IMG/VR virus record: IMGVR_UViG_3300025570_002077
Coordinates: 1-21,213 of that record
Strand: one strand, 5' to 3'
Length of the DNA stretch: 21,213 nucleotides
Source of the DNA: a virus
Below the pieces are notes generated by a model. The model did not search any database. It was not told the origin of the DNA and worked only from the letters and a program-made list of their open reading frames with translations. Below, piece after piece: positions 9,271-21,213 of this stretch (positions are counted from its first letter, which is position 1; every line of letters begins with the position of its first letter). The position numbers and the translations under genes were made by a program.

Positions 9271-10242
9271 TTAAAATAATTCATCCTCAGAGAATGACTG
9301 GTTCTTCTTGGCATACTCAACTGGTTTACCATGGAAGAAGTCGGTCATAGAGTTACCAAGTAACTCCTCTTCGAACCATATTGTACTGGCTATTTTAGCT
9401 TTATCAATGTTAAATACAGGATTAAATCCAATCATTTCAAGTGAATCATTAATTCTACCTTTAACAAACTCTTTTAGTACATCAGCAGACAGACCTTCTT
9501 CGTCTACACCATTAACCATCCAGTCAATGATTTTAGCCTCGGCCTTGTATGCCTCCTCTGCTTCATGTGAAATACGCTCAATTAACTCATCGTCTATCAA
9601 TTCAGGATACTCTGCACGAATGGTATTAATAAGACGAGCCCCCACCATAGCGTGTATATTCTCCTCGTTACGAGTATATTTTACCTGCTGGTCAGTATCC
9701 TTGAGAACGTTCTTAAACCTTGCAAACCAGTTAATAACATAGAACTGAGAAAACAGCGAAACATTCTCAACAAATAAAGTAAACAAAATAAGAGCATATA
9801 GATACTGCTTCTTACTATCCTTGTAGAATCGATGTGTATACTTCTTAAGATACTTAACACGACCCTGTATAAAGTCTAACTTAAGGTTCTCTTCAAATAT
9901 ATCTTCCATGTCAAGCACAGAAAGCAATCTCTCATATGCGTTGTTATGAATAACCTCAGTGTTAGCCATAACATATCCAAGATCCTGAAGAGATGGATGC
10001 GGCAAGTTATCGCCTAGTTTAGCCCAGAAAGTCTTAACTGCTACCTCAATCTGACCAATAGCAGATAGACAACGAATTACGATTTCTCTCTCTTGGTCGT
10101 TTAATACAACCTTAAACTGCTGTACATCCGACTTAAATGTAAACTCCTTATCAGTCCAGAATCCATTGTGCATAGACTCAATGAACTGCTCTGTCCATGG
10201 GTATTGGTTAGGTTTCCTTGAAACCTGCTCATCAAATATCAT
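9271..10242 (-). CDS. nrdB: Class I ribonucleotide reductase, small (beta) subunit
   Basis: NrdB houses the dimetal centre that makes the radical used by NrdA. Ligands visible in the 323 residues are E96 and H99 in NTEVIHNNAY, E159 in LFVENVSLF, and E194 and H197 in EENIH. The radical-site tyrosine is Y103, four residues after H99 as in E. coli (H118, Y122). The first ligand, Asp84 in E. coli, appears to be Glu here (E66 in GQIEVAV), as in some other subclasses. The C-terminal SEDELF fits the short acidic tail that docks on NrdA. The gene precedes nrdA by 6 bases, an order opposite to the usual nrdA-nrdB. Confidence 0.95.
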   Translation of the reverse strand: MIFDEQVSRKPNQYPWTEQFIESMHNGFWTDKEFTFKSDVQQFKVVLNDQEREIVIRCLSAIGQIEVAVKTFWAKLGDNLPHPSLQDLGYVMANTEVIHNNAYERLLSVLDMEDIFEENLKLDFIQGRVKYLKKYTHRFYKDSKKQYLYALILFTLFVENVSLFSQFYVINWFARFKNVLKDTDQQVKYTRNEENIHAMVGARLINTIRAEYPELIDDELIERISHEAEEAYKAEAKIIDWMVNGVDEEGLSADVLKEFVKGRINDSLEMIGFNPVFNIDKAKIASTIWFEEELLGNSMTDFFHGKPVEYAKKNQSFSEDELF

Positions 10243-10254
10243 TTTATTAAATCT

Positions 10255-10350
10255 CTATTGAAAGTTAACTACAGACTGGTTATTAATAATACTGAAATTT
10301 CTCTGATTATGAGATAACTGCATGCTGTCTGTTAATGATGTATAGTCCAT
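10255..10350 (-). CDS. Possible 31-residue protein upstream of nrdB
   Basis: ATG 10348-10350 to TAG 10255-10257 encodes a polar peptide beginning MDYTSLTDSMQ and ending SVVNFQ. Support comes from position: it fills the space just before nrdB, a TATAAT sequence (10363-10368) lies 12 nt upstream, and a late-like TTAAAATA ends 5 nt before the ATG. There is no recognisable motif. It could instead be an untranslated leader of nrdB. The remaining 10351-10462 stretch shows no other gene I can support. Confidence 0.35.
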   Translation of the reverse strand: MDYTSLTDSMQLSHNQRNFSIINNQSVVNFQ

Positions 10351-10462
10351 GTTCTTATTTTAATTATAGTGTATGAAGCAGCCAACTCCAGCTACTCTCT
10401 TCAGAAAGTATTTAGTACAACCTCACTCAATAACAGACTATTTTCTCACCTTTTACACAAAA

Positions 10463-10897
10463 TTATGCCTCAGCTACTTTAATAAGAGCACCGGCAAACT
10501 TCTTACCAGAGCCATCAGCAGGGAATGGTGCTGTAGTATGTAATTTTACCACCTCTACAACATCCCACTCTTTACCTCCAAGCTCTAATGTATTGCCTGC
10601 TCTCTCAGCATTCTCTGCTGCTAGCATTGTATGATCAGGTGTACGTTTTAATGTGTAGGTACCGTCTACATTTACAATAGCTAATGTGAACCTCCTCATT
10701 AATGACTTACCGTTTGGCAGATCATCACCTTCAAGCGCGTCTTCTAGTTCTTGTTCAGATATGGTAATCTCTGGAAACTTAACACGCTCTTGAGCTCTCT
10801 TAATAGCTTCTGGGTCATATGGTAGTTCACGCTCTTCATCACTGTGACGAAGTCCACATTCTTCACTAAAAAATTGTTTAAAAGATCTCTTTGACAT
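10463..10897 (-). CDS. Conserved-type phage hypothetical protein
   Basis: This 144-residue protein is not recognised. The N-terminus (SFKQFFSEE) has the short aromatic-acidic form common at the start of T4-like marine phage proteins. An acidic helical region (about 15-60) follows, then a beta-rich C-terminal half with RRFTLAIVNVDGTYTLKR (about 68-85) and GGKEWDVVEVVKL. The latter looks like a compact sheet domain with a possible ligand pocket. An AATAAATA motif ends 5 nt before the start, so it is predicted to be late. It is divergent from the lysozyme gene, with only 37 bases between the start codons. Confidence 0.65.
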   Translation of the reverse strand: MSKRSFKQFFSEECGLRHSDEERELPYDPEAIKRAQERVKFPEITISEQELEDALEGDDLPNGKSLMRRFTLAIVNVDGTYTLKRTPDHTMLAAENAERAGNTLELGGKEWDVVEVVKLHTTAPFPADGSGKKFAGALIKVAEA

Positions 10898-10902
10898 ATT
10901 AG

Positions 10903-10910
10903 TATTTATT
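10903..10910 (-). promoter_or_regulatory. T4-type late promoter motif (AATAAATA), minus strand
   Basis: This motif ends 5 nt before the ATG at 10897. With the plus-strand motif at 10920-10927 it makes a back-to-back late promoter pair inside the 37-base intergenic region. Confidence 0.55.
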
Positions 10911-10919
10911 ACTTTTTGC

Positions 10920-10927
10920 TATAAATA
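10920..10927 (+). promoter_or_regulatory. T4-type late promoter motif (TATAAATA), plus strand
   Basis: This is a perfect copy of the T4 late promoter consensus. It ends 7 nt before the lysozyme ATG at 10935, leaving no room for a normal ribosome binding site downstream of the predicted transcript start. Confidence 0.7.
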
Positions 10928-10934
10928 TACTAGA

Positions 10935-11648
10935 ATGACTGAACAATTTGACGAAGGTGTAAAAGAGATAGTGTTGTCACTATTAGCTTTAGGCGCAGGT
11001 GCTTATGAGGCAGATTATATTAAGAGTTTAATTGATAGTAAGAATGAGCCTATCGAGCAAAAGATACAGGCTATTAAGATAGCTGATAGGCAAATATCTG
11101 ATATGTCATTCGATGCAGCTGCAGAAGAGGTCCTAAAGGATTTAGAGCAGGAAGCTGAACCAACAGAACCTGTGCTTGTTAAGCCAAAAGTTAAATATGA
11201 TCTCGCTTCAGAAGAAGATGCATGGAATGAGATGTTAGATGGTGTTAAGCACTTTGAGGGGTTCAGATCGAAGAAGTATATCTGTTCAGGTGGAAAAGAG
11301 ACTATTGGTTACGGTCATACAGGCCCTGCTGTTAATAAAGGTGATATAACCGAAGAAGAAGCCAGTAGTCTTCTTGCAAGAGAATTAAGGGAGACGCAAG
11401 GGGTAGTACAGTCTATTGTCAAGGTACCACTTAATAGTAATCAGTTAGCAGCGTTAACGTGCTTTACATACAACTGTGGTAGAGGAGCTCTCAGCCAGCT
11501 AGTTGGTAAGCCAGGTAGGCTAAATGATGGTAACTACGATAGTGTGAATGAAATACTACCTAAATATAGAATGGCTGGTGGCAAAATAAGAAAGGGTCTA
11601 GTTAGAAGGAGGGCGTTTGAGCTGGATCTATGGAATAATGAGTCCTAA
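10935..11648 (+). CDS. GH24 lysozyme (endolysin) with N-terminal extension
   Basis: This 237-residue protein has a C-terminal T4-type lysozyme domain (about 95-235). HFEGFR gives the catalytic Glu (E108), and KETIGYGHTG aligns with the T4 Thr26 region (T123). The position of T4 Asp20 is a Cys (C117 in YICSGG). Cys occurs there naturally in many GH24 enzymes, and Asp20-to-Cys T4 lysozyme is reported to stay active, so activity is expected. The first 90 residues are extra: a short hydrophobic helix (VLSLLALGAGAY, about 13-24) in an acidic setting, then a Glu/Pro-rich linker. They lack the basic start of a signal-anchor. It may be the free endolysin or a virion enzyme replacing the missing gp5 lysozyme domain. 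Confidence 0.88.
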   Translation: MTEQFDEGVKEIVLSLLALGAGAYEADYIKSLIDSKNEPIEQKIQAIKIADRQISDMSFDAAAEEVLKDLEQEAEPTEPVLVKPKVKYDLASEEDAWNEMLDGVKHFEGFRSKKYICSGGKETIGYGHTGPAVNKGDITEEEASSLLARELRETQGVVQSIVKVPLNSNQLAALTCFTYNCGRGALSQLVGKPGRLNDGNYDSVNEILPKYRMAGGKIRKGLVRRRAFELDLWNNES

Positions 11649-11671
11649 CAAATCATCCTAGGATGATTTGT
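11648..11671. terminator. 24-bp perfect palindrome between convergent genes
   Basis: Each arm is 12 bp (left arm ACAAATCATCCT, no spacer). It begins at the last base of the lysozyme stop codon and covers the last codons and stop of the sulfotransferase on the other strand. The position suggests a bidirectional terminator or mRNA 3'-end stabiliser. There is no clear T-run on either side, so factor-independent termination is uncertain. Confidence 0.5.
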
Positions 11672-12254
11672 AGTCGTAATTAAAGTTATCTATTACCCAT
11701 TTTTCTCTCTCAGCAACCATATCTATTAATTCTTGGTTATAATATTCAGTGTATGGTTTTTTGTATGAACTTTTATTAGAGTGTTTTAAATTTGGGATTG
11801 GTGTCATACCAACCTTATTACAAAATACAGCAAAATCCTTATTAAGGTTCTCGAGTCGGCCTACCATATCAACTGATAGGGTGTTGTTTTTAAATAAATA
11901 ATAATCCTGTGAAGGGTTCTTTTTTATTATTAAGCCTAAGTTAAATTTACCCCTTGTTTTAAAAGCAGATAAATCAAGACAATTATCAACCGTCTCCATC
12001 CACCTTAAAAACGAAGTATACCTTACCCATGGATTTCTTACTACAGCGAATTTAAAGTACTTATCAAAGTCCCAGGCATTTTTTAAAAACCCTATCTCTA
12101 CATCTGCAATACTAGCGTGTTGATAAAAATTACCAGGATTTGGTTCGCCTAAAACATCAACAATACCCAAAGGGCGTAGTGTTTGTATAAAGGTTGTTGT
12201 ACCAGCCTTTGGTATGTCTATTTTAATGAACTTATGTTTATGAGATATTAACAT
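11658..12254 (-). CDS. Sulfotransferase family protein (copy 1 of 3)
   Basis: The PAPS-binding loop is IPKAGTTTF (14-22), matching the 5'-phosphosulfate loop. AVVRNPWVRYTSF (about 70-82) is the 3'-phosphate-binding segment of the Sulfotransfer_2-type family. The 198 residues are near the lower limit for a complete domain. It would move a sulfate from PAPS to a hydroxyl of a glycan or lipid in the cytoplasm. It is last in the glycan cassette, overlaps the methyltransferase by 7 bases, and its 3' end forms half of the palindrome at 11648-11671. The acceptor cannot be read from the sequence. Confidence 0.82.
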   Translation of the reverse strand: MLISHKHKFIKIDIPKAGTTTFIQTLRPLGIVDVLGEPNPGNFYQHASIADVEIGFLKNAWDFDKYFKFAVVRNPWVRYTSFLRWMETVDNCLDLSAFKTRGKFNLGLIIKKNPSQDYYLFKNNTLSVDMVGRLENLNKDFAVFCNKVGMTPIPNLKHSNKSSYKKPYTEYYNQELIDMVAEREKWVIDNFNYDYKSS

Positions 12255-12940
12255 CTTTTAAACAATAATGATTTGTAGTTCTTTGGTTCTCCAAGATAGC
12301 GGGGTTTTGTAATGGTGACCCTTTCTAGTTTGAATCCTATGTCAGACAATATAGCTTCTATATCTTTCTGAGAGAGCATCCACCATGTATGACCATGCGT
12401 GTTGCTGTAAAAACTAGAGCGCGCTTGAAACGGGTTAATTAAAATCGCGTGATGTTTTACTTTATAAAGAATATTCATCAAAGTTAATATTGGATCTCTG
12501 ACATGAGACAACATTGTGCCAAAAACTGCCACATCAAATTCACCTAATTCATCTGGCAGTGGGTCATATATGTTAGCTCTGAAGATTTTGTTATTGGAGT
12601 CGAGTTTTTCGTGCAAATAATCATAACTATTGAACATTCCATTAGTTCTTTCTGCTCTTGGTTTTTTATAGCCCCGTTTTATCAAGTGATCCCAATAGCT
12701 TCCATCTGGCATATCAAAAGAAACAACATCAGCACCCTGATTCTCCATCTCAAACGACAAATAACCAGAAGCAGCACCAACATCAATAACACGCTTACCT
12801 CTAAAGTCTAAATTGCTTAAATAATCATCAATACAGTCAGTCAAATCCCAATCACCATCAATGATTTCATCTCCCACCTTTACCGTGTGATAAAATTTAC
12901 AGTCTTCTTTTTTTATATTTTTTATAGGCTTAATGTACAT
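12248..12940 (-). CDS. Class I SAM-dependent methyltransferase (CmoB/DUF1698-like)
   Basis: The 230 residues have motif I VIDVGAASGYLS (51-62), the acidic ribose-binding residue in VVSFDMPDG (D76), and a motif IV-like segment (FDVAVFGTMLSHV, about 134-146). SYWDHLIKRGY (about 81-91) recalls the CmoB/DUF1698 group. This group includes tRNA wobble-uridine enzymes and many methyltransferases of sugar clusters. Between two sulfotransferase genes, a sugar O- or N-methyltransferase is the better guess here. It overlaps both neighbours (7 and 11 bases), so translation is probably coupled. Confidence 0.8.
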   Translation of the reverse strand: MYIKPIKNIKKEDCKFYHTVKVGDEIIDGDWDLTDCIDDYLSNLDFRGKRVIDVGAASGYLSFEMENQGADVVSFDMPDGSYWDHLIKRGYKKPRAERTNGMFNSYDYLHEKLDSNNKIFRANIYDPLPDELGEFDVAVFGTMLSHVRDPILTLMNILYKVKHHAILINPFQARSSFYSNTHGHTWWMLSQKDIEAILSDIGFKLERVTITKPRYLGEPKNYKSLLFKRC

Positions 12941-13799
12941 AATTATTATAAATTTTTCTATCCCATTGTGATTTGAACTGCCATGCTTCGCGAGTCTCTT
13001 TTTTAAGTTGATGCAGTCGAATATTTTCTTTTTTTTCTGTTTTATTTTTAAAAATTATATTTTTTTTATTTTTTCTACCCGACCTCGCATACTCTTGACG
13101 AGCTTGTCTAGTTTCTTCTTGTGTCCCGTAAGCAAATATATTAAGATTTTTTATATCGATGTCATGACACTCCAACATAATTTTCCTCAACCTAACATCT
13201 ACTTTACTTATATCAAACACTCTCATTTTATCCAGGCTTGAACAAGCTTTATCAAAATTTTTCTGTGTAATAGGTATTATTCTCTCTAAACCCGTCAGTC
13301 TACGTATTAGCCATGAATCCTCAATTTGTGTAGAGTTAATATAATCTTCAAATGTTAAATTAGCAAAAGCGTTGTGATATAATTCATGGCTTGAGTTTTC
13401 AGATTGTGTGTAGTTAAACATAGATAATGCACGTTGGTATGGGTCACGTAAACAAATAAATTCTTGAAACTCTTGCCCGCGTTTTAAAAAATGCCTTAAA
13501 TCTTGGTTAATACTATAAAAACCATAATCCGCGACTCTTACCATAAAAATCTTTAATTGCTGTAGCTTGAAATGGTCAAAATCAACAGAATAACAAACAT
13601 TATTTATTTTATTATAAGCATTATTAAAAGTTACCTCACCATAGCATAATAATCTATATGCAATATGACCATCTTTAGTTATATCGATATGATAGCATGG
13701 TTCACCATCAGCCGCTTCGCGAAGTGCAGCAAAACATACATTGTTTATATACGTACCGGCACACTTTGGAATATGGTAGAATATCGGTATCTTTTTCAT
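12930..13799 (-). CDS. Sulfotransferase family protein (copy 2 of 3)
   Basis: The 289 residues have the PAPS loop YHIPKCAGTYI (8-18) and the 3'-phosphate segment FICLRDPYQRALSMF (114-128). It is longer than the other two copies and has an unusual Lys/Arg-rich stretch near the C-terminus (GRKNKKNIIFKNKTEKK) that may bind an acidic substrate or membrane. The sequence outside the two motifs is unlike its neighbours, so it probably acts on a different acceptor rather than being a recent duplicate. It overlaps the methyltransferase by 11 bases and is 4 bases from the glycosyltransferase. Confidence 0.8.
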   Translation of the reverse strand: MKKIPIFYHIPKCAGTYINNVCFAALREAADGEPCYHIDITKDGHIAYRLLCYGEVTFNNAYNKINNVCYSVDFDHFKLQQLKIFMVRVADYGFYSINQDLRHFLKRGQEFQEFICLRDPYQRALSMFNYTQSENSSHELYHNAFANLTFEDYINSTQIEDSWLIRRLTGLERIIPITQKNFDKACSSLDKMRVFDISKVDVRLRKIMLECHDIDIKNLNIFAYGTQEETRQARQEYARSGRKNKKNIIFKNKTEKKENIRLHQLKKETREAWQFKSQWDRKIYNNYVH

Positions 13800-13803
13800 G
13801 TCT

Positions 13804-14760
13804 CTAATCTGGCCATTCTTCTTGCATATGTGGTTTAGCCTTAACTAGTAAAAACTTATACAGGTCTCTTAACTCTTTGTTTCTACTAAAGGTAATATGG
13901 TCTATATCTATTCCATTTAAGTCACAACCATGCTTTCTAGCAGACGACACGACATCCTCCAACCATAAATATATTTCTGGATTAAAAACTAAACAATCCA
14001 TTAATTTTTCTTTATCTAGTACACGATCATGGCTATGTTCCTGTAGAAAGGGGTACGAATCCCACTCTCTAGATAAATCAGCTGTATCTATCCAGTCGTA
14101 AACTTCGCGATGGTAGATCCAACAATATGCACCGAAAAAATTATACTCAGTAAAATTGTCTACGTTTTTTAAGTATTCTAGAATAGTAACACCATGATTA
14201 CTAATGAACCACTTACGCATTTCCTCAAATAACCATTTAGGGTAAATTAGAGGCATTCTTCTCATAAATTCATACTCTACCGGCTCATCTAACTTTAAAG
14301 CTTCTGTTATAATATCTTGCCAGTGTGTACAATCTTCACCTGGATGATCTCTCTTAATACTCTCATATGATGTCATTAACATAGTTGGCTTACCATCTTT
14401 ATTAAAGTACATTTCAGGTGTATGCTCTTTATAGAATATAGAATCACTATCTACATGACAAATCCACTCTGTATCATCTGGAACGTAGAGATCGCTATAG
14501 AACTTCATATATTGCTGTCTAACATATCCTTTTGACACGTTTCTAGCATTTGTATCTATATAGTAGTTTATATTATTATGCTGTAACCACTGATCAGATT
14601 GCGCGCAATCTCTTTCATGATTATCAATCACAACATTATAAGAATGGTAGGTTTTGCAAAATGCATTAAAGCTATTCCACGACTTATTTAACCACTCTAA
14701 ATCCCTATCATAAGTTACTGTTAAAACAGATACTTTTGGTGTATTAAAATTCGTATCCAT
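13804..14760 (-). CDS. GT-A-type glycosyltransferase-like protein
   Basis: The start is taken at the ATG 14758-14760 because it lies directly before the GT-A beginning (PKVSVLTVTYDRDLEWL). A further in-frame Met at 14793 lies deeper in the upstream gene. At about 102-107 HVDSDS gives a DxD motif for a metal-sugar nucleotide. The 318 residues include several Trp/Tyr-rich segments (for example FGAYCWIYHREVYDWI) typical of glycan-binding sites. It is probably a sugar transferase building the glycan that the sulfotransferases modify. It overlaps the preceding sulfotransferase by 17 bases. Confidence 0.65.
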   Translation of the reverse strand: MDTNFNTPKVSVLTVTYDRDLEWLNKSWNSFNAFCKTYHSYNVVIDNHERDCAQSDQWLQHNNINYYIDTNARNVSKGYVRQQYMKFYSDLYVPDDTEWICHVDSDSIFYKEHTPEMYFNKDGKPTMLMTSYESIKRDHPGEDCTHWQDIITEALKLDEPVEYEFMRRMPLIYPKWLFEEMRKWFISNHGVTILEYLKNVDNFTEYNFFGAYCWIYHREVYDWIDTADLSREWDSYPFLQEHSHDRVLDKEKLMDCLVFNPEIYLWLEDVVSSARKHGCDLNGIDIDHITFSRNKELRDLYKFLLVKAKPHMQEEWPD

Positions 14761-15316
14761 ATTTTTCAATTTCAAAATGTGATAGTGAAGCAATTTGATC
14801 TATTAGCTGTTGTTGATCGTAATATTCCCTATAATCCTGACTCGGTCTATTTGTATCATGCTTTAGATTTAACACCTCGTAATCTGCTATGCCTAGTTTA
14901 CCCATTACAATCTTTAAATCGCTCTCAAAATGCTCCTGCCTTATGATATCATCTACTATATACTTACCCTTAATGTGAAGCTTTGGGTATATAGCATAAT
15001 TTATACTCTGTATATGGACATCGTTAAGTATAAATTTCCAGAACGGCTGCTTATAGTCTTTATGTTTTTGTAAATGGTGATAATAAGATACTGCTCTATC
15101 CCACGGGTTGCGTACTACTGCAAACTTATAGTAGTTCTTAATACCTGGTCCTATATGATTAGCCCATTCTGCAGCGCGCCAGTGACCGCTTCCTTTAGGC
15201 TCGAGCTCGTCTGAGATCATGCCTTCGGAATATTCGTTTCTTAAAATGTGCCTTAAACTGGTACCAGCACACTTTTGCGGGTGAATAAATAAGAATTTTT
15301 TTTCAGAATGATACAT
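14744..15316 (-). CDS. Sulfotransferase family protein (copy 3 of 3)
   Basis: The 190 residues have the PAPS loop IHPQKCAGTSLR (11-22) and the 3'-phosphate segment KFAVVRNPWDRAVSYY (64-79), both close to the Sulfotransfer_2 consensus. A perfect TATAAATA ends 10 nt before its ATG, with ACTAGGTACT between. This marks the start of a late transcript that runs through the glycosyltransferase, sulfotransferase 2, the methyltransferase and sulfotransferase 1. It resembles copy 1 in size and motif wording more than copy 2. Substrate unknown. Confidence 0.85.
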   Translation of the reverse strand: MYHSEKKFLFIHPQKCAGTSLRHILRNEYSEGMISDELEPKGSGHWRAAEWANHIGPGIKNYYKFAVVRNPWDRAVSYYHHLQKHKDYKQPFWKFILNDVHIQSINYAIYPKLHIKGKYIVDDIIRQEHFESDLKIVMGKLGIADYEVLNLKHDTNRPSQDYREYYDQQQLIDQIASLSHFEIEKYGYEF

Positions 15317-15326
15317 AGTACCTAGT

Positions 15327-15334
15327 TATTTATA
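15327..15334 (-). promoter_or_regulatory. T4-type late promoter motif (TATAAATA) inside the glycan cassette
   Basis: A perfect consensus copy on the minus strand, 10 nt before the sulfotransferase 3 ATG. It lies in the short gap between two cassette genes, which argues that it is a used promoter and that the downstream half of the cassette is late. Confidence 0.65.
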
Positions 15335-15344
15335 ATAAGTGATG

Positions 15345-16277
15345 TTATAAATCAAGCTTAGTTTGTTCGGAAATAGTTTTCCAATCGGCACCTGGTGATA
15401 GTTGTCTATTCATTATATGGCAAGATAATCCCGGTATAGGTGATATTAAAAGACGCTCTCTCTCATGATATAATTTTGGCCAAACCGCGCTATCTAATAT
15501 TGTTTGATAAACAATATCATAATCTTCATCAAATATTTTTTTTGTTGACATTGCATGTGGTGTACCTCCTGGCTGGATTACCATCCAGTGATGGCTGCTA
15601 TCCGGCATGAACCCTTGGTTCCAATCATCTGCACTTTGTGTGCCTGTGCTAAAGAAGTTAAACTTTTCAAATCTATTAATATCTGTAATTGGTCCTTTTA
15701 AATTATCACCACATAAGTGTTTATATCTATATCTTGCATCACACGGTGCAATATAATTGTTTGATGTTAAGTCTGGAAACTCCTCATAAAGTAAATTTAT
15801 TTTATCTAACCAATTATTTTGAAACAAATAATCATTCTCACATATAAAAATTTTATCATCTGGATCTACTCTCAATGTTTTTATATATTTTAACGTTTCT
15901 CTAAGAGATATAAAATCTCTCGGTAGTGGGTAGTTATCTGTTGTTAGAACAGTTGTAGCGGAGTGCTGTCTATTTGGTTGTATTTTTTGAATATTTCTAG
16001 CTAAGTCTAAATGATCACTAACACAGCTACTAGTATCGATAGTGTAGATTGTTAAAAAGTCTTTATATTTATATATAAAATTGTTTGTTGGTTCTAAACT
16101 ATCCATTATAATATGAAGACAAACATCATCACGGTCTTTAATAGAATTAAATAAGCTTAAGAAACACTTTTCAAAACTAAACCAGCTCGGTATACGTCCG
16201 TTACCTGCTACATTAGATTTAGACGGATTCTCTGTATCATAATGACGGTAAAAAATATGTAGTTTGTTATGCTTCAT
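15345..16277 (-). CDS. Putative glycosyltransferase (GT-A-like)
   Basis: The 310 residues show alternating strands near the N-terminus (LHIFYRHYD, CLHIIMDS, LTIYTID) and an acidic motif KIFICENDYLFQNNWLDK (about 143-160). There E-N-D takes the place of the usual DxD, and aromatic residues follow as in sugar-nucleotide transferases. The C-terminal half has ACDARYRYKH-like and HHWMVIQPGGTPHAMS-like segments. The family cannot be named with certainty, but the layout and neighbours fit a glycosyltransferase. It lies 28 bases before the late promoter motif's side of sulfotransferase 3 and 2 bases after a possible 30-residue gene. Confidence 0.55.
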   Translation of the reverse strand: MKHNKLHIFYRHYDTENPSKSNVAGNGRIPSWFSFEKCFLSLFNSIKDRDDVCLHIIMDSLEPTNNFIYKYKDFLTIYTIDTSSCVSDHLDLARNIQKIQPNRQHSATTVLTTDNYPLPRDFISLRETLKYIKTLRVDPDDKIFICENDYLFQNNWLDKINLLYEEFPDLTSNNYIAPCDARYRYKHLCGDNLKGPITDINRFEKFNFFSTGTQSADDWNQGFMPDSSHHWMVIQPGGTPHAMSTKKIFDEDYDIVYQTILDSAVWPKLYHERERLLISPIPGLSCHIMNRQLSPGADWKTISEQTKLDL

Positions 16278-16279
16278 GC

Positions 16280-16372
16280 TTATAAAATATTTTTTTGTTG
16301 AAAACAGCCAGGTGCATCTGATTCTATATCGATAAAAACAATATATTTTTTAATTGGTATAATTTCTTTCAT
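16280..16372 (-). CDS. Possible 30-residue protein or gene remnant
   Basis: ATG 16370-16372 to TAA 16280-16282 encodes MKEIIPIKKYIVFIDIES followed by about 12 residues. It fits tightly between neighbours (4 bases after the acyltransferase stop, 2 before the next start). The strand-like KKYIVFIDIES resembles the first beta strand of a larger enzyme. It may therefore be a tiny gene or the leftover N-terminus of a lost cassette gene. There is no other support. Confidence 0.35.
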   Translation of the reverse strand: MKEIIPIKKYIVFIDIESDAPGCFQQKNIL

Positions 16373-16376
16373 ATTT

Positions 16377-16964
16377 TTACTTATTAACATTTTGGGCATG
16401 TGCAGGGATTCCTACGTAGCATCCGGGCTCGTTTATGTTTGTTACAACCGCAGCACACATACCTATAATGATGTTATCTCTAATCGCGATTTTCTCTTTA
16501 ATACAGGAATTAGCTCCTAAATAAACATTATCACCTATACTAACACTACCAGATACAACAGCGCAAGGCATTGCACTAAAAAAATCACCGATTGAGCAGT
16601 CATGACTAAGATGATTACTTCTGTTTAATAGAGCGTGTTTACCTAATTTAATATTTGTTGTTAATATACAGTTAGCACCGATAAAGCTACCTTCACCTAC
16701 AGATATATTTAAATCCATAATTAAAGCGGTTGGATGAATAAAAGTAAAATAAGTTGTGTTAGCTGGTAGCTTGCTTACTAGTTGTCTTCTTAGCATGCTA
16801 TCCCCAACAGCCACCATAACCTCATATTTATTATGATCAAACTCTGATAGAGGTCTAGTATGTTCGCAGACAAACTCATCATCAACAAAACAGGTCAAAC
16901 AACAACCCATCTGACTCATTATCTCTCTTGCATGGCCACCATAACCTATAAGTGCTCGCTCCAT
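16377..16964 (-). CDS. NeuD/PglD-type sugar O/N-acyltransferase (left-handed beta-helix)
   Basis: The 195 residues have an N-terminal Rossmann-like UDP-sugar-binding part starting ALIGYGGHARE (4-14). A left-handed parallel beta-helix of hexapeptide repeats follows (about 83-190; for example ISVGEGSFIGANCI, VSIGDNVYLGANSCI). The catalytic His is H121 in LSHDCSIGDF, as in PglD/NeuD. The enzyme would acetylate an amino sugar nucleotide using acetyl-CoA. It follows the DegT-type aminotransferase by 8 bases; this pair normally makes a 4-acetamido-dideoxy sugar or a related residue. Length is normal for the family. Confidence 0.85.
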   Translation of the reverse strand: MERALIGYGGHAREIMSQMGCCLTCFVDDEFVCEHTRPLSEFDHNKYEVMVAVGDSMLRRQLVSKLPANTTYFTFIHPTALIMDLNISVGEGSFIGANCILTTNIKLGKHALLNRSNHLSHDCSIGDFFSAMPCAVVSGSVSIGDNVYLGANSCIKEKIAIRDNIIIGMCAAVVTNINEPGCYVGIPAHAQNVNK

Positions 16965-16972
16965 ATCAAATA

Positions 16973-17608
16973 CTACTTATAAATATCAAATTTACTTAGA
17001 TCAGGGTATGGTAGAGTTAAGTCTTTATTATGTTTTTTTGTACCATCCATATTATAGAACTGTTTAATAAGGAGTAAACCTCTAGCTGCTAGCTCAGGCA
17101 TCATATAAAAATTCCAGCCTAACATGTCAAAATTATCATCATGATACGAGCATTCGTTACGTCCACTATATCTAGCACGTCTAAACCAATCATTAGCTTC
17201 TTTTGAATCGGTTAAAATAGCACCACCTTTACTAAGCTTAAAGTGTTTATATGGACCGGTAAAAGATATGCACATATGGGTATCTGGTATATACATATCC
17301 GCTGTAAATCTTAACGCAGAATCCCATACATTACTTCCCTCCAATAAATAAGCTCCTGTTAGTGTATTACCCTTCATTTTTTTAAAATCAACCTTTAAGC
17401 CAGCGTGTATAATTTCACATGGTACAGATGGGTAGGTACGAGAGGGTATCGTTATATAATCTCTGCAGTTTTTTTTAATATGATGCTCATAGTATAAAGA
17501 TAAAAAAAGACCATTGCTTAAATTATCCAAACATATAGCATATTTAGCACCGGTATAATCTGCTAAACTTTCTTCAAGAGAATCAGTAACCGCATATACA
17601 TTAGACAT
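16973..17608 (-). CDS. DegT/DnrJ/EryC1-type PLP aminotransferase, short form
   Basis: Numbering is from the ATG at 17614, though the ATG at 17608 is preferred as the start because TAAAAATA lies 9 nt before it. The Schiff-base Lys is K123 in SFTGPYKHFKLSKGGAIL, matching the F-x-x-x-K-x-x-x-x-G-x-G-G pattern of the family. A PLP-pyridine Asp is D98 in VWDSALRF. DegT proteins usually have about 370 residues; this one has about 211. It retains most of the large PLP domain and lacks the normal C-terminal small domain. It is open to a clean stop, so it is either a compact phage form or a truncated gene. With NeuD it would make an N-acyl amino sugar. Confidence 0.7.
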   Translation of the reverse strand: MSNVYAVTDSLEESLADYTGAKYAICLDNLSNGLFLSLYYEHHIKKNCRDYITIPSRTYPSVPCEIIHAGLKVDFKKMKGNTLTGAYLLEGSNVWDSALRFTADMYIPDTHMCISFTGPYKHFKLSKGGAILTDSKEANDWFRRARYSGRNECSYHDDNFDMLGWNFYMMPELAARGLLLIKQFYNMDGTKKHNKDLTLPYPDLSKFDIYK

Positions 17609-17666
17609 ACACATACTTATTTTTAACAGTTATAATAGCAATATACTATTACCACTTTTACATAAA

Positions 17667-17686
17667 AATTTTCTAATTAGAAAATT
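17667..17686. repeat. 20-bp perfect palindrome in the leader of the aminotransferase gene
   Basis: The arms are AATTTTCTAA and its complement with no spacer. It lies in the 181-base gap (17615-17795), about 60 bases upstream of the aminotransferase start. It could be a protein-binding site or an RNA stem; the high A+T content makes it weaker evidence than its length implies. Confidence 0.5.
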
Positions 17687-17697
17687 AATAAAGTCTG
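17683..17697 (+). repeat. 15-bp direct repeat, copy 1
   Basis: AATTAATAAAGTCTG, followed by TTAC. The same 15 bases occur at 18474-18488, followed by GTTAC. The two copies bracket the wcbI-like gene 791 bp apart. Nothing else is seen in the rest of the 17615-17795 gap except the palindrome and a TATAAATA motif. Confidence 0.55.
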
Positions 17698-17785
17698 TTA
17701 CCCGGTAAATGAGCTTTGTGGTTTTTTTCTGTATTGGAATGTTTCCAGAAAATATGTATTGTGCTATTATTTTGTTTATTAATGA

Positions 17786-17793
17786 TATTTATA
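17786..17793 (-). promoter_or_regulatory. T4-type late promoter motif (TATAAATA) before the aminotransferase
   Basis: A perfect consensus copy on the minus strand in the intergenic gap, just after the wcbI-like stop codon. If used, it would give the aminotransferase an unusually long leader of about 170 nt that includes the 20-bp palindrome. Other late motifs here sit 5-12 nt from their genes. AT-rich surroundings make chance occurrence possible. Confidence 0.4.
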
Positions 17794-17795
17794 TA

Positions 17796-18380
17796 TTAAC
17801 CATTTGGCCATTTATATTTTGAAATTGTATTATATTGTTCATGTGAATAATAATTCCAATCAAGTTTATTACAAATACATCTAACCAATTCAAGATAGTA
17901 CTTATGATTAGGGTGTGTATATGCTGTTGGAGATTGGATGGATATCTCATCTACATGTTCATCAATAATTTTATGCGCTGGTATATCAATGTCAAACTTT
18001 TTCCATCGATCAATCATTCCATCATATAAGTGATGAAGATCTGGGTCTGGAGACCAATGAAAACTCGATATTGATATAGGTAAACATCTCTCATTTATAT
18101 ACTTAAGTATTTTTTCATAGTTCCAGTTTAAAGAGTATCCCGGACTTATATGCATATACACTAGTATATCGGCCTCATTCAAGAAATCAATAGACTCTTC
18201 AACAGTATTTAAAAATGGTAATTGTGACCCGGTAGGGTCTAAAGATTTAAGTTTAAAAAGTTTTTCAGCTGGTATATGTTTACATACAAAATCCGGAGAC
18301 AGTTGCTGTATATACCATGTTAAGGCTCTAGACTGACAGTTACCTACGGTTGCTATATTCATACTTTGTGACTTAAACAT
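17796..18380 (-). CDS. WcbI-like polysaccharide biosynthesis protein
   Basis: The 194 residues begin with IATVGNCQSRALTWYIQQL (about 9-27). This G-N-C-Q-x-R-A signature is typical of WcbI-family proteins of capsule clusters, where binding of CoA suggests acyl transfer. HHLYDGMIDRW and YTHPNHKYYLEL near the middle and end fit family-style conserved His and Asp positions. An alternative ATG 6 codons in (18362) starts right at the signature strand. ATTAAATA abuts the first ATG, and 15-bp direct repeats flank the gene. It is likely to add an acyl group to the glycan made by the cassette; the exact reaction of the family is not settled. Confidence 0.7.
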   Translation of the reverse strand: MFKSQSMNIATVGNCQSRALTWYIQQLSPDFVCKHIPAEKLFKLKSLDPTGSQLPFLNTVEESIDFLNEADILVYMHISPGYSLNWNYEKILKYINERCLPISISSFHWSPDPDLHHLYDGMIDRWKKFDIDIPAHKIIDEHVDEISIQSPTAYTHPNHKYYLELVRCICNKLDWNYYSHEQYNTISKYKWPNG

Positions 18381-18473
18381 ATTTAATACGTATGGTTATG
18401 TTTTCAATAAACAACTACTACTCTTTTACACGACAGTATAAAAAAAATTATCTAACACACAGAGGCATTAGAG

Positions 18474-18488
18474 AATTAATAAAGTCTG
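18474..18488 (+). repeat. 15-bp direct repeat, copy 2
   Basis: Same sequence as 17683-17697 (AATTAATAAAGTCTG), here preceded by AGAG and followed by GTTAC. It lies at the boundary between the glycan cassette and the small late genes, in the 18381-18502 gap. That gap otherwise shows only an A-run and no gene. Confidence 0.55.
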
Positions 18489-18502
18489 GTTACTAGTGAC
18501 GT

Positions 18503-18871
18503 TTAGTTACTTGATCTACTCTTAAATGCATCATAAGCATCGCCAATGTGACCGAAAGTAAGCTCGAATGCACGATCGGTTACATCCGGATCGTCAAAGA
18601 TATTAGCTAACCCGTAAAGGAACTCTTCCATACTATCAGCATCTAACTCTCCGACACTTGCTAGTAGTTGAAAGACCTCTGGATTCTCAGCATCTTCTGA
18701 CTTACTTGCTTCGAAGTTATCCAGAGCGTCCTGTGACTCAGGCAATTCACCATGCACCTCTAAGTACTCAAGATCCTTATCTTCACCGTCTTCGTAACCT
18801 TCTGTGATTACCTGACCTGCCAGTGATGCTAGATCGTTCCTGTCCTTACCCCATGTATTGTGCTGTTGCAT
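18503..18871 (-). CDS. Acidic hypothetical late protein with possible protease cleavage site
   Basis: This 122-residue, very acidic protein (long Glu/Asp-rich middle) is not recognised. Near the N-terminus LASLAGQVITEGYEDG places an I-T-E followed by Gly at about 22-25, like the sites cut by the T4 prohead protease. The C-terminal half (SMEEFLYGLANIFDD onward) is helical. AATAAATA ends 5 nt before its ATG, supporting late expression. An internal head or scaffold-associated protein is possible. It is the first gene after the glycan cassette. Confidence 0.6.
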   Translation of the reverse strand: MQQHNTWGKDRNDLASLAGQVITEGYEDGEDKDLEYLEVHGELPESQDALDNFEASKSEDAENPEVFQLLASVGELDADSMEEFLYGLANIFDDPDVTDRAFELTFGHIGDAYDAFKSRSSN

Positions 18872-18876
18872 ATTAT

Positions 18877-18884
18877 TATTTATT
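18877..18884 (-). promoter_or_regulatory. T4-type late promoter motif (AATAAATA)
   Basis: Seven of eight bases match the T4 consensus. It ends 5 nt before the ATG at 18871. Confidence 0.55.
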
Positions 18885-18901
18885 GTAAAGGTGTTCCTTT
18901 T

Positions 18902-19108
18902 CTAGGATTTTACCCAATCCTTTACCGTACACCCGAAATGCTTCTCACTGCATTCAATACATCTATATATGTCACAATACAAACATCTATACATGTCTAG
19001 TATGTTAAACCTCTCACCACACTGACAAACGACCTCCGCACCCTCGGCTCCCTGAAGATCATGTGATTGTAAACCTAGAAGCTCTCGCTCATACGCCGTT
19101 CTTTTCAT
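18902..19108 (-). CDS. Cys/His-rich zinc-binding small protein (RING/B-box-like spacing)
   Basis: The start is set at ATG 19106-19108 (68 residues) because a perfect TATAAATA ends 5 nt before it. An in-frame ATG 36 bases upstream (19144) would place that promoter inside the gene. Potential ligands are C28, C30, C42, C45, C50, C53, H57 and C60. The order C-x-C, C-x2-C, C-x2-C, H-x2-C would fit two zinc ions. Key segments are EVVCQCGERFN and MYRCLYCDIYRC. Such folds mediate protein or nucleic acid contacts; no specific role can be assigned. This is the most cysteine-dense gene of the right-hand block. Confidence 0.7.
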   Translation of the reverse strand: MKRTAYERELLGLQSHDLQGAEGAEVVCQCGERFNILDMYRCLYCDIYRCIECSEKHFGCTVKDWVKS

Positions 19109-19113
19109 ATAGG

Positions 19114-19121
19114 TATTTATA
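19114..19121 (-). promoter_or_regulatory. T4-type late promoter motif (TATAAATA)
   Basis: A perfect consensus copy on the minus strand ending 5 nt before the ATG at 19108, and used here to choose that start. Confidence 0.7.
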
Positions 19122-19137
19122 CAGCGCAATGCGTATA

Positions 19138-19749
19138 CTACCACTTCTTACATGACCAATAACCTGCTGTAGTCTTGTCTTTCTTTTGATCACACTTATG
19201 TCTAGCTCTGAATGACTTACGTGCACCTGGGTTAGACTTTCTTATACGCATGTTAGGGTCGCCGAAGTTAACCTTCTTAACGTTACCTGTCTTAGGGTTC
19301 TTAACATATACCTTAAACTTCTTAACATCGCCACGTGTAGGCTTATTTAATGTTACCTTACGTCCTTTATACTCAGCATCCTCCTCTGGAAGACCAGCGA
19401 GCTTCTCTTCAGCTTCTTCATTGCTCCACTCTTCTTCATCACAATCGTGGTAGTTAATAAAGCGTTGTGCTGCTTTGGCTGTATGAGAGCCTTTGTCTTT
19501 AGTACTGCTCTTCAAGCTCTTAGCCTTTGAACAAGTAACCTTACCTTTGATCTGATTAGAGAGTATACCAGGTTTAGATGCCTTATGCTTATCTTCTGCA
19601 TCTTCAGCCTTCTCACATGAACCCTGCTCACCGCGCTTCTTACCAGGTACCTTCTTGTATCCATCCCAGCACTTCTTAGCATTCTCACTAACTGTGCTAT
19701 ACGCCTCAGCTAAGAGCTCCATGTCCTTCTTATAGTTATTGTGTTGCAT
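19138..19749 (-). CDS. Lys-rich phage protein with capsid-targeting-like N-terminus
   Basis: The 203 residues start with YKKDMELLAEAYSTV, where L-A-E before Ala (about 13-16) matches T4 internal protein starts (FIAE-A). Next come CWDGYKKVPGKKRG (about 28-41), an acidic and Lys-rich low-complexity centre, and a conserved-looking C-terminal domain. This includes VTLNKPTRGDVKKF, NFGDPNMRIRKSNPGARKSF and RARHKCD, ending YWSCKKW. The C-terminal block recurs, from memory, in many marine phage proteins of unknown function. The protein is strongly basic overall and could be packaged with DNA. No late motif is seen directly before its ATG. Confidence 0.65.
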   Translation of the reverse strand: MQHNNYKKDMELLAEAYSTVSENAKKCWDGYKKVPGKKRGEQGSCEKAEDAEDKHKASKPGILSNQIKGKVTCSKAKSLKSSTKDKGSHTAKAAQRFINYHDCDEEEWSNEEAEEKLAGLPEEDAEYKGRKVTLNKPTRGDVKKFKVYVKNPKTGNVKKVNFGDPNMRIRKSNPGARKSFRARHKCDQKKDKTTAGYWSCKKW

Positions 19750-19768
19750 GGTATATTAAAGTTATATG

Positions 19769-20410
19769 TTACTCTTTATTACTCTGTACACCCTCAGTGT
19801 AAAGTTGTGCCATGTCTTGGTATACTGAATTAGGACGTCCTACACTCTCACCAATTGCTGAAAAAGCTTTTCCCATGTCGTTAACCGGCTCATCACTGTT
19901 CTTATGCTCATATGGCTCTTCTTTCTCTTTCTCAGACTCTCTAGCTTGCTCATACAGGTCATTAATAATCTTATCCCACTCTTCTGAACTATGATCTGAC
20001 CAATGATGTCCACGTGGTCTGAAACCATTAAGAGACTTATATGCATCACTATACTCAGATGAAGCTTCAACTGCCTGGAAGTCTTCTAAGGACTTAATAC
20101 CATTCATACCGTACTCTTTCAGATCTTGAATGATACCCTCTGTAGCTGGTACAGCCCAAAAAACACTCTCACCTGCAGCCTGACGAGCCTCCATCTCTTT
20201 ATCAATCGCTGCACCCTTATCATCAAGATACCTGCGAATCTCATCTAGTAATGACTCATCAACCTCTTCTGCATCTTCAACATCTTCAACATGTCCTTGC
20301 GTGTCATCTGTATCCTTAGTAGGTGTAATATCCTCTGCACAATGGTCGCAGTCCTCATGAAGCACCCTTGATGCAATCTCACCTATACATAACATATCTC
20401 GCTTGTTCAT
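19769..20410 (-). CDS. Hypothetical late protein with a YKSLNGFRPRG segment
   Basis: The 213 residues are acidic with a Cys/His cluster near the start (LHEDCDHCAED, about 17-27). A region about 118-140 (YSDAYKSLNGFRPRGHHW, followed by Ser/Glu-rich sequence) recurs in many phage hypothetical proteins. A coiled, Glu/Lys-rich stretch and a C-terminus reading QLYTEGVQSNKE follow. ACTAAATA ends 5 nt before the ATG and overlaps the end of the upstream gene. Function unknown. It could be a structural or internal head protein, based on its neighbours and late-type promoter. Confidence 0.6.
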   Translation of the reverse strand: MNKRDMLCIGEIASRVLHEDCDHCAEDITPTKDTDDTQGHVEDVEDAEEVDESLLDEIRRYLDDKGAAIDKEMEARQAAGESVFWAVPATEGIIQDLKEYGMNGIKSLEDFQAVEASSEYSDAYKSLNGFRPRGHHWSDHSSEEWDKIINDLYEQARESEKEKEEPYEHKNSDEPVNDMGKAFSAIGESVGRPNSVYQDMAQLYTEGVQSNKE

Positions 20411-20415
20411 ATAGT

Positions 20416-20423
20416 TATTTAGT
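20416..20423 (-). promoter_or_regulatory. Late-promoter-like motif (ACTAAATA)
   Basis: It contains the CTAAATA form of the T4-like late motif. It ends 5 nt before the ATG at 20410 and overlaps the stop region of the FeoA-like gene. Confidence 0.45.
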
Positions 20424-20628
20424 CATCGACGATGATTTGTTCGCACAAATTTTTGGAAACTACCACCCTTACGCTGCATGCCGCACAAATAATGTTATTG
20501 TGACTCTCTGATATCTTCCGAACCACTGTACCTTCTGATAAGCCGAACTCTCTGATACGCTGGCAGTCAGCGCCTTTCAGGCATCTGATGATCAGATTAC
20601 AGTTAACACACGCATCAGTAAGGTTCAT
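20419..20628 (-). CDS. FeoA-like small protein with seven cysteines
   Basis: This 69-residue protein has QRIREFGLSEGTVVRKI (about 23-39), matching the core of FeoA domains (R-L-x-E-L-G-L-x-P-G-x-x-V-x-V). A C-terminal strand pair (RVVVSKNLCEQIIVDD) closes the SH3-like barrel. Bacterial FeoA is a cytoplasmic partner of the FeoB iron transporter. Here seven Cys residues are added, including C7-x2-C10 near the start and C48-x2-C51, suggesting that metal is bound. No FeoB is present in the window. It may act as a metal-binding adaptor or regulator. It ends one base before the start region of its neighbour. Confidence 0.55.
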   Translation of the reverse strand: MNLTDACVNCNLIIRCLKGADCQRIREFGLSEGTVVRKISESHNNIICAACSVRVVVSKNLCEQIIVDD

Positions 20629-20629
20629 A

Positions 20630-20860
20630 CTATGCTAACATCCTGATTATAATAAGTGTTAGACCAAACAAAGCCCCTATACTATACATCTTGTATGCAA
20701 AGTGTCTTGTATCTCTCTTACACTTAGTATAGTACTCGTCGTACAAGCGGTCCATACGCGCATCATACTCCTTATCCCTTTCTGACATCTTACTATATGT
20801 CTCTTCAATCAACTCTGACAAGCATTGCTCGTCACCATCTACTAGTTTGTTATCTGTCAT
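20630..20860 (-). CDS. Small C-terminally anchored membrane protein
   Basis: The 76-residue protein has a charged, helical N-terminal 55 residues (ERDKEYDARMDRLYDEYY). One transmembrane helix at the extreme C-terminus follows (YSIGALFGLTLIIIRMLA, about 59-76). This tail-anchored layout resembles small phage lysis or inner-membrane proteins, but there is no motif that identifies it. It lies one base after the FeoA-like start codon region and 5 bases from the next gene. Confidence 0.6.
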   Translation of the reverse strand: MTDNKLVDGDEQCLSELIEETYSKMSERDKEYDARMDRLYDEYYTKCKRDTRHFAYKMYSIGALFGLTLIIIRMLA

Positions 20861-20865
20861 GATTC

Positions 20866-21081
20866 TTAATATGCGTCGTTCATGGCTGCCTGTACCTTCA
20901 CCTCAGCCAACTGATCCTGAATACCACTATAGTTCTCTAAGATAAAGATATAGCGTTCTCGCGACAAGCCGGTCATCTCCCTCGCACGGGGGTCGAACAT
21001 ATTATAGTAACCGGTGAGTCTGACACGCTCGTACGTACGCCAGTCGACAATATCCCTATCTGAGTATCTGTTAATATCCAT
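20866..21081 (-). CDS. Conserved-type phage hypothetical protein
   Basis: The 71 residues include RLTGYYNMFDPRAREMTGL (about 21-39), a segment that looks conserved and is probably a helix-capping or binding loop, followed by a long helix (RERYIFILENYSGIQDQ). The family is not recognised. The start ATG 21079-21081 has no clear ribosome binding site or late motif. It is the first gene of the right-hand minus-strand block, and its leader lies in the 21082-21213 stretch. Confidence 0.55.
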   Translation of the reverse strand: MDINRYSDRDIVDWRTYERVRLTGYYNMFDPRAREMTGLSRERYIFILENYSGIQDQLAEVKVQAAMNDAY

Positions 21082-21105
21082 ACTATGAGTATATCGGTGT
21101 TCCTT

Positions 21106-21210
21106 TTAAGGGCAAGCATCACCGGGTCTCTCAGATAATGCGTAACAGGGAGCTCCCGATTTCCGTATACCCCGGAAAATTCTGGACACGCGAAAATTTT
21201 TTGATGCCAT
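21106..21210 (-). other. Weak 34-codon frame at the window edge
   Basis: A minus-strand frame runs from ATG 21208-21210 to TAA 21106-21108 and encodes a basic, Cys-containing peptide. It could equally be the end of a gene that enters from outside the window. The stretch 21082-21213 also carries a 10-bp palindrome GGGAGCTCCC (about 21150) and a small stem (TTTCCG/CGGAAA). It looks more GC-rich than its surroundings, and its nature is open. Confidence 0.2.
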
Positions 21211-21213
21211 GGC

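Follow-up and report, generated by a model that had tools for sequence, protein, structure and literature searches.

A putative exchangeable glycan-decoration island with a miniature sugar aminotransferase in a phage genome fragment

The IMG/VR virus fragment IMGVR_UViG_3300025570_002077 was analysed over 21,213 bases, and this whole stretch is called the window here. Nine genes fill positions 11658-18380 of its minus strand, and it is fairly probable that they form an exchangeable phage island for glycan decoration, with which an amino sugar would be made and then transferred, methylated and sulfated on a cytoplasmic acceptor. The original prediction, made from the letters of the window, had described nine genes in one orientation with glycan-enzyme content. 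This was borne out by open reading frame (ORF) calling, in which all nine ORFs were present, and the families to which the genes belong give good support for a chemistry of sulfation, methylation and acylation. The prediction had also suggested a complete pathway, and this part has to be withdrawn: no nucleotide-sugar dehydratase, synthase of 3'-phosphoadenosine 5'-phosphosulfate (PAPS), lipid-carrier enzyme or membrane enzyme was found among the cassette genes. The cassette covers only the amination and N-acylation steps together with transfer and decoration, and therefore a nucleoside diphosphate (NDP)-4-keto-6-deoxy sugar and PAPS would have to come from the host or from phage genes beyond the 21-kb fragment. 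Likewise, no NDP-sugar nucleotidyltransferase or 4,6-dehydratase was found in the window, although the phage genome is incomplete and they may lie elsewhere.

Gene content of the cassette

Three sulfotransferases had been proposed, and two of them are clear. The PAPS-dependent ST1 (11658..12254) and ST3 (14744..15316) passed the curated cut-off of PF03567 (Sulfotransfer_2; 22 bits) with 30.7 bits (4.6e-7) and 31.4 bits (2.7e-7), and both matched PHROG 3347, a galactose-3-O-sulfotransferase group (2.9e-12 for ST1). The motifs of ST1 are IDIPKAGTTTF and FAVVRNPWVRYTS. ST2 (12930..13799) is divergent; it fell under the PF03567 cut-off (15.9 bits, E 9.4e-5) and had no Pfam match as a protein, yet it keeps both PAPS-type motifs, HIPKCAGT and FICLRDPYQRALS (the second also given as ICLRDPYQRALS), and a homologue with 34-37% identity is present in the related contig L087. 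The class I S-adenosylmethionine methyltransferase MT (12248..12940) was assigned by Methyltransf_23 (2.4e-10).

The two glycosyltransferase-like proteins were recognized by different means, and nothing was found when GT1 was compared with GT2 by hhalign. GT1 (13804..14760, with a probable ATG start at 14760) has no Pfam match, and its identity as a glycosyltransferase is probable from its homologue in L087 (42-45% identical), in which the DSDS motif is conserved and Glycos_transf_2 matched at 0.0018, under the cut-off. GT2 (15345..16277) has no Pfam or other sequence match, and its AlphaFold model reached a predicted local distance difference test (pLDDT) score of only 73.6. The model has a GT-A fold, with N-acetylglucosaminyltransferase I (GnT-I) as its best match (Z 15.0 over 216 residues, root-mean-square deviation 3.9), and the END at 147-149 of its ENDY motif, an acidic metal motif, is invariant.

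The remaining genes are AcT (16377..16964), a sugar N-acetyltransferase of the NeuD/PglD/VioB type, AT (16973..17614), a DegT-family sugar aminotransferase dependent on pyridoxal phosphate (PLP), and a gene for a WcbI-like protein (17796..18380), which fell under the PF18588 cut-off (22.9 vs 29.2 bits, E 7.7e-5). AcT matched TIGR03570 (NeuD/PglB/VioB family) over its full length with 149.4 bits and E 9e-44, the cut-off being 160.8, and its closest solved structure is VioB (7txp, 1e-26). No hydrophobic segment was found in any of the nine proteins (largest 19-residue mean 1.53), and all of them look soluble.

Searches of the viral contigs with ST2, ST3, GT1, GT2 and the WcbI-like protein gave nothing useful besides L084 and one ST3 relative of 27% identity, and the sulfotransferase, WcbI-like, GT1 and GT2 sequences had no convincing match among solved structures. 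L084 (IMGVR_UViG_3300025806_005051), a contig of 6269 bases, agrees with the window at every base, so the cassette was assembled separately there. The contig L091 (IMGVR_UViG_3300025621_001340), an nrdB relative of 86%, carries two PF03567 sulfotransferases, and multiple sulfotransferases are thus not unique to the window; the same contig encodes a 1913-aa repeat protein. Our literature search found no relevant paper on sulfotransferase cassettes of marine phages.

Proposed pathway and acceptor

In the proposed pathway, AT would aminate a host-derived keto-deoxy nucleotide sugar, to which AcT would add an acetyl cap, giving an N-acetylamino-deoxy sugar nucleotide of the VioB/PglD type; families, folds and neighbours argue fairly strongly for these two steps. 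GT2 and/or GT1 would then move the sugar onto a cytoplasmic acceptor, as fold and linkage suggest, and MT and the three sulfotransferases, judged by their families, would add methyl and sulfate groups to the glycan, which may also be acylated by the WcbI-like protein. The analysis shows the gene content, the predicted folds, the purifying selection on AT, its coupling to amine-capping genes and the exchange at the hotspot; substrates, acceptor and timing are inferred. As membrane, lipid-carrier, polymerase and export enzymes are absent from the cassette and its proteins have no hydrophobic segment, the acceptor should be reachable in the cytoplasm and is most likely something already there. 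A virion protein is favoured, at about even chances, by analogy with the VioT-type transferases that decorate flagellin, and a host glycan precursor or host surface protein is a somewhat less probable acceptor.

The strongest alternative, which we regard as possible but not favoured, is a change of the host envelope, in which the cassette would alter cytoplasmic precursors of O-antigen or capsule and thereby keep further phages or grazers from attaching. In its favour, the NeuD/VioB, WbqC and WcbI families consist mostly of O-antigen and capsule enzymes, and there is a precedent in cyanophage P-SSM2, for whose lipopolysaccharide (LPS) genes an alteration of the host surface was suggested (PMC2984593). 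However, no flippase, polymerase, ligase or membrane protein was found in the cassette, nor any hydrophobic segment, and remodelling of the envelope would have little time if ST3 is expressed from its late-type motif.

Several points weigh against the decoration island itself. The enzyme activities are predicted ones, the assignments of ST2, GT1 and the WcbI-like protein are weak, and a PAPS source and an NDP-sugar dehydratase are absent from the window. About 160 residues of an ordinary DegT enzyme are missing from AT, among them probably parts that touch the substrate, so that the substrate of AT may not be a sugar nucleotide. Moreover, a PF03567 sulfotransferase occurs in only 4 of 50 AT-bearing viral records, which places sulfation outside the conserved core.

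The miniature aminotransferase and its capping genes

AT has 213 aa, whereas DegT-family proteins have about 370, and it falls short of the full-length two-domain form (about 360-400 aa), although it scored well over the PF01041 cut-off (45.2 vs 19.8 bits, 1e-11). Its relatives were confirmed in 481 viral contigs in the viral contig scan, the best 80 being 72-82% identical. Residues D98, S117, K123 and N168 are invariant across 41 AT sequences; D98 is the Asp that contacts PLP, and K123 aligns with the PLP lysine of PseC, K183 (2fn6). The GT of the phosphate loop is replaced by S33-N34. The AT model (pLDDT 87.7) matches GDP-perosamine synthase with Z 17.4 over 181 residues, in a gapped alignment within residues 26-330 of the 367 of that enzyme. 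Between the window and its relatives, nonsynonymous divergence (dN) is about 0.2 and synonymous divergence (dS) ranges from 1.6 to saturated; AT is under strong purifying selection and is not debris.

It is unlikely that AT has lost its aminotransferase function and become a binding or regulatory protein or another PLP enzyme, such as a ColD-like dehydratase. Its shortness and the altered phosphate loop would agree with such a change, and ColD and E1 dehydrase also rank high among its structure matches. Nevertheless, the PLP lysine is kept, at a position where ColD-type dehydratases have His, the Asp and Asn are invariant too, and the neighbours of AT are amine-capping enzymes. A working AT might be the smallest sugar aminotransferase with this fold.

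For counts of the neighbours, AT loci were grouped at 95% identity into 56 clusters. The next gene is a VioB-type acetyltransferase in 32 of them, and this gene overlaps AT by 4 nt in 41/44 cases. In other clusters the next gene encodes WbqC (5), a sulfotransferase (3) or a methyltransferase (3), and in one cluster each a sugar N-formyltransferase, an ATP-grasp protein or another hexapeptide acyltransferase; it is other or unknown in nine clusters, and no gene adjoins in four. Such varied capping genes are as expected if the product of AT is an amine that is capped in different ways. The conserved core is AT-AcT, often followed by a GT2-like enzyme; of 80 loci, 19 to 22 have a gene for a GT2-like protein downstream of AT. 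A bolder and rather doubtful extension is that the miniature DegT proteins are a virus-associated subfamily making one conserved amino-sugar block, which is capped by swappable groups (acetyl, formyl, aminoacyl via WbqC or ATP-grasp, and perhaps N-sulfate) and displayed on virions as an exchangeable coat, of which the window phage would have a sulfate-rich version.

Bacterial genome contigs yielded only seven AT matches; one of them, L167, clearly belongs to the same phage type. L166 (10001-12409), a contig of an Opitutia metagenome-assembled genome, carries a miniature AT followed by WbqC, and its other genes are mostly unmatched to the phage loci; this is possibly a bacterial chromosomal copy and a candidate source of the phage genes. 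In Synechococcus phage S-SCSM2R (L173, 8001-8588), a 195-aa miniature DegT protein with 31.6% identity adjoins a radical SAM maturase, an amidinotransferase and several glycosyltransferases, and the miniature form may predate the 75% family and reach beyond it.

Exchange at the lysozyme gene

The cassette sits in an exchange hotspot, in which phages with 95-100% identity in ribonucleotide reductase carry different glycan genes. One border is the lysozyme gene (10935..11648, plus strand; PF00959 6.8e-33), which lies outside the cassette and is 90-97% conserved in L086 and L087, whose cassettes are different; the other is a set of small conserved phage genes, d18503, d18902 and d19138 (18503..19749, minus strand), found as conserved DNA blocks in L087. 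In L087-L090, nrdA is 95% identical and much of the flanking DNA is 78-92% identical to the window, and between the same borders lie three other genes, one GT-like, one ST2-like and one GT1-like. In L086, nrdB is 100% identical, and the spot holds the end of an FkbM methyltransferase gene and a DUF6492 glycosyltransferase gene, the latter at the position of GT1. The last codons of this FkbM gene and the first bases of this glycosyltransferase gene persist in L087, joined directly to the end of the lysozyme gene, and the junction is a deletion scar. In the comparison with related phages that the original prediction had proposed, glycan genes recurred at the spot, and the particular cassette was swapped rather than conserved. 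Diversifying selection on a surface feature would be expected to produce such swapping among close relatives.

It is quite improbable that the cassette is a loose set of moron genes which a recombination hotspot has brought together and which are unrelated and share no product: the spot clearly gains and loses genes, PF03567 sulfotransferases seldom accompany AT elsewhere, and L086 has a WcbI-like gene (27% identical) on the opposite side of the lysozyme gene, but all recognizable genes at the spot in the three variants are glycan enzymes, AT-AcT-GT2 recur together in other phages, and the genes of the ST3-GT1-ST2-MT-ST1 run overlap or abut as in an operon.

Late-type motif and timing

ST3 carries the T4-type late promoter-like motif TATAAATA (15327..15334, minus strand) 10 nt ahead of its start codon. 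The site proposed there is late-promoter-like and has the short spacing typical of this T4-like phage group. The motif NATAAATA lies 5-12 nt before the start codon at 8 of 33 window starts (2295, 3755, 5403, 10897, 10935, 15316, 18871 and 19108), with 0.12 expected, and at none within 13-60 nt. In T4 and S-PM2 the pattern is reversed, with 0 near and 8 far sites in T4 and 0 near and 6 far sites in S-PM2, in both at 14-37 nt. Among nrdB-related loci, which were not dereplicated, 153 genes have the motif at 5-12 nt where 3.4 were expected; the distances peak sharply at 5 nt, and the near spacing is also seen across L087-L164. No motif at this spacing was found before nrdA, nrdB, the kinase gene or the phosphoribosyltransferase gene. 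T4 promoter geometry would put the transcription start at or just before the AUG, and the near spacing suggests late mRNAs with little or no leader, or an element like a ribosome-binding site.

The position of the ST3 motif makes late expression of the ST3-GT1-ST2-MT-ST1 run plausible, in line with the earlier suggestion of use during assembly, which is unsupported for AT-AcT-GT2. A late promoter before the aminotransferase gene had also been considered and was rejected, as that motif has the wrong spacing: it occupies 17786-17793, some 170 nt ahead of the gene, where the WcbI-like gene has its stop-codon end. A general excess of TATAAATA in the window was rejected as well, with 8 sites against 4.84 +/- 1.99 expected. 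The counts of sigma-70-like promoters and terminators over 10200-21213 were those of shuffled sequences.

Other loci of the window

Besides the cassette and lysozyme, the window encodes nrdA and nrdB, a baseplate OB/spike pair and a DNA guanine transglycosylase. Its backbone proteins (spike, hub) had no relative among annotated phages, and nrdA was rejected as a guide to the host, since its matches include Staphylococcus phages as well as those of Rhodobacter and Ruegeria. On the minus strand of 1-2244 lie the start of queF (1-150, by sequence resemblance), an AAA_28/thymidylate-kinase-like gene (165-749), Formyl_trans_N (749-1390) and the DpdA-like transglycosylase (1381-2244), in an order that matches gp202-gp206 of Flavobacterium phage immuto. 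These genes form a locus for 7-deazaguanine DNA modification that includes a formyltransferase, perhaps for a formylated preQ1 base.

Comparison with known systems

Glycan cassettes of phages are already known; what is added here are three sulfotransferases, a miniature AT family with interchangeable caps, and direct evidence of exchange. With a compact conserved enzyme, hundreds of phage contigs, exchangeable amine caps and a hotspot, a phage with sugar genes becomes a testable system. If the product does coat virions, aquatic phages would vary the chemistry of their surfaces, sulfation included, in the way that bacteria diversify their O-antigens.

A cultured example of the core is found in immuto (NC_055915, gp171-gp181), in which the same miniature AT (74%) is followed by the same acetyltransferase (61%, L080) as gp172-gp171, amid glycosyltransferases and a methyltransferase. 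In a DNA-level phage search with the window, only this pair and one uncultured phage were found. Unlike the cassette, the immuto region has a full-length DegT, an epimerase and large GT-B-like enzymes, and no PF03567 sulfotransferase was found in the immuto record (L080 = G082). The full-length and miniature DegT genes lie in one region (L172, 8292-9491 and 12001-12645), which suggests different substrates for the two forms.

For decorated virions, phage glycosyltransferases have been linked to the glycosylation of virion proteins in mycobacteriophages (Freeman 2023, as cited in PMC11256854); these have another host group, and glycosyltransferases are the only enzymes named for them in that citing account. 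For the envelope reading, P-SSM2 comes closest among phages; its 24 LPS genes in two clusters (PMC2984593) are likewise a large block of surface-polysaccharide type in a T4-like marine phage.

The nearest working analogue of the cassette is the viosamine island of Pseudomonas syringae (vioA-vioM-vioT-vioS-vioB-vioR-acp), which decorates flagellin and varies between strains (PMC3927599). The cassette differs from it in being phage-borne, in lacking vioS, vioR and acp and in having three sulfotransferases in addition. VioA has 372 aa against the 213 of AT, and VioT has 1173 aa against two smaller GT-A-like proteins. The product of the viosamine island sits on a protein surface, as is favoured for that of the cassette. 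Both systems combine a DegT-type aminotransferase, a VioB-type acyltransferase, a methyltransferase and glycosyltransferase functions, and the island, too, is variable.

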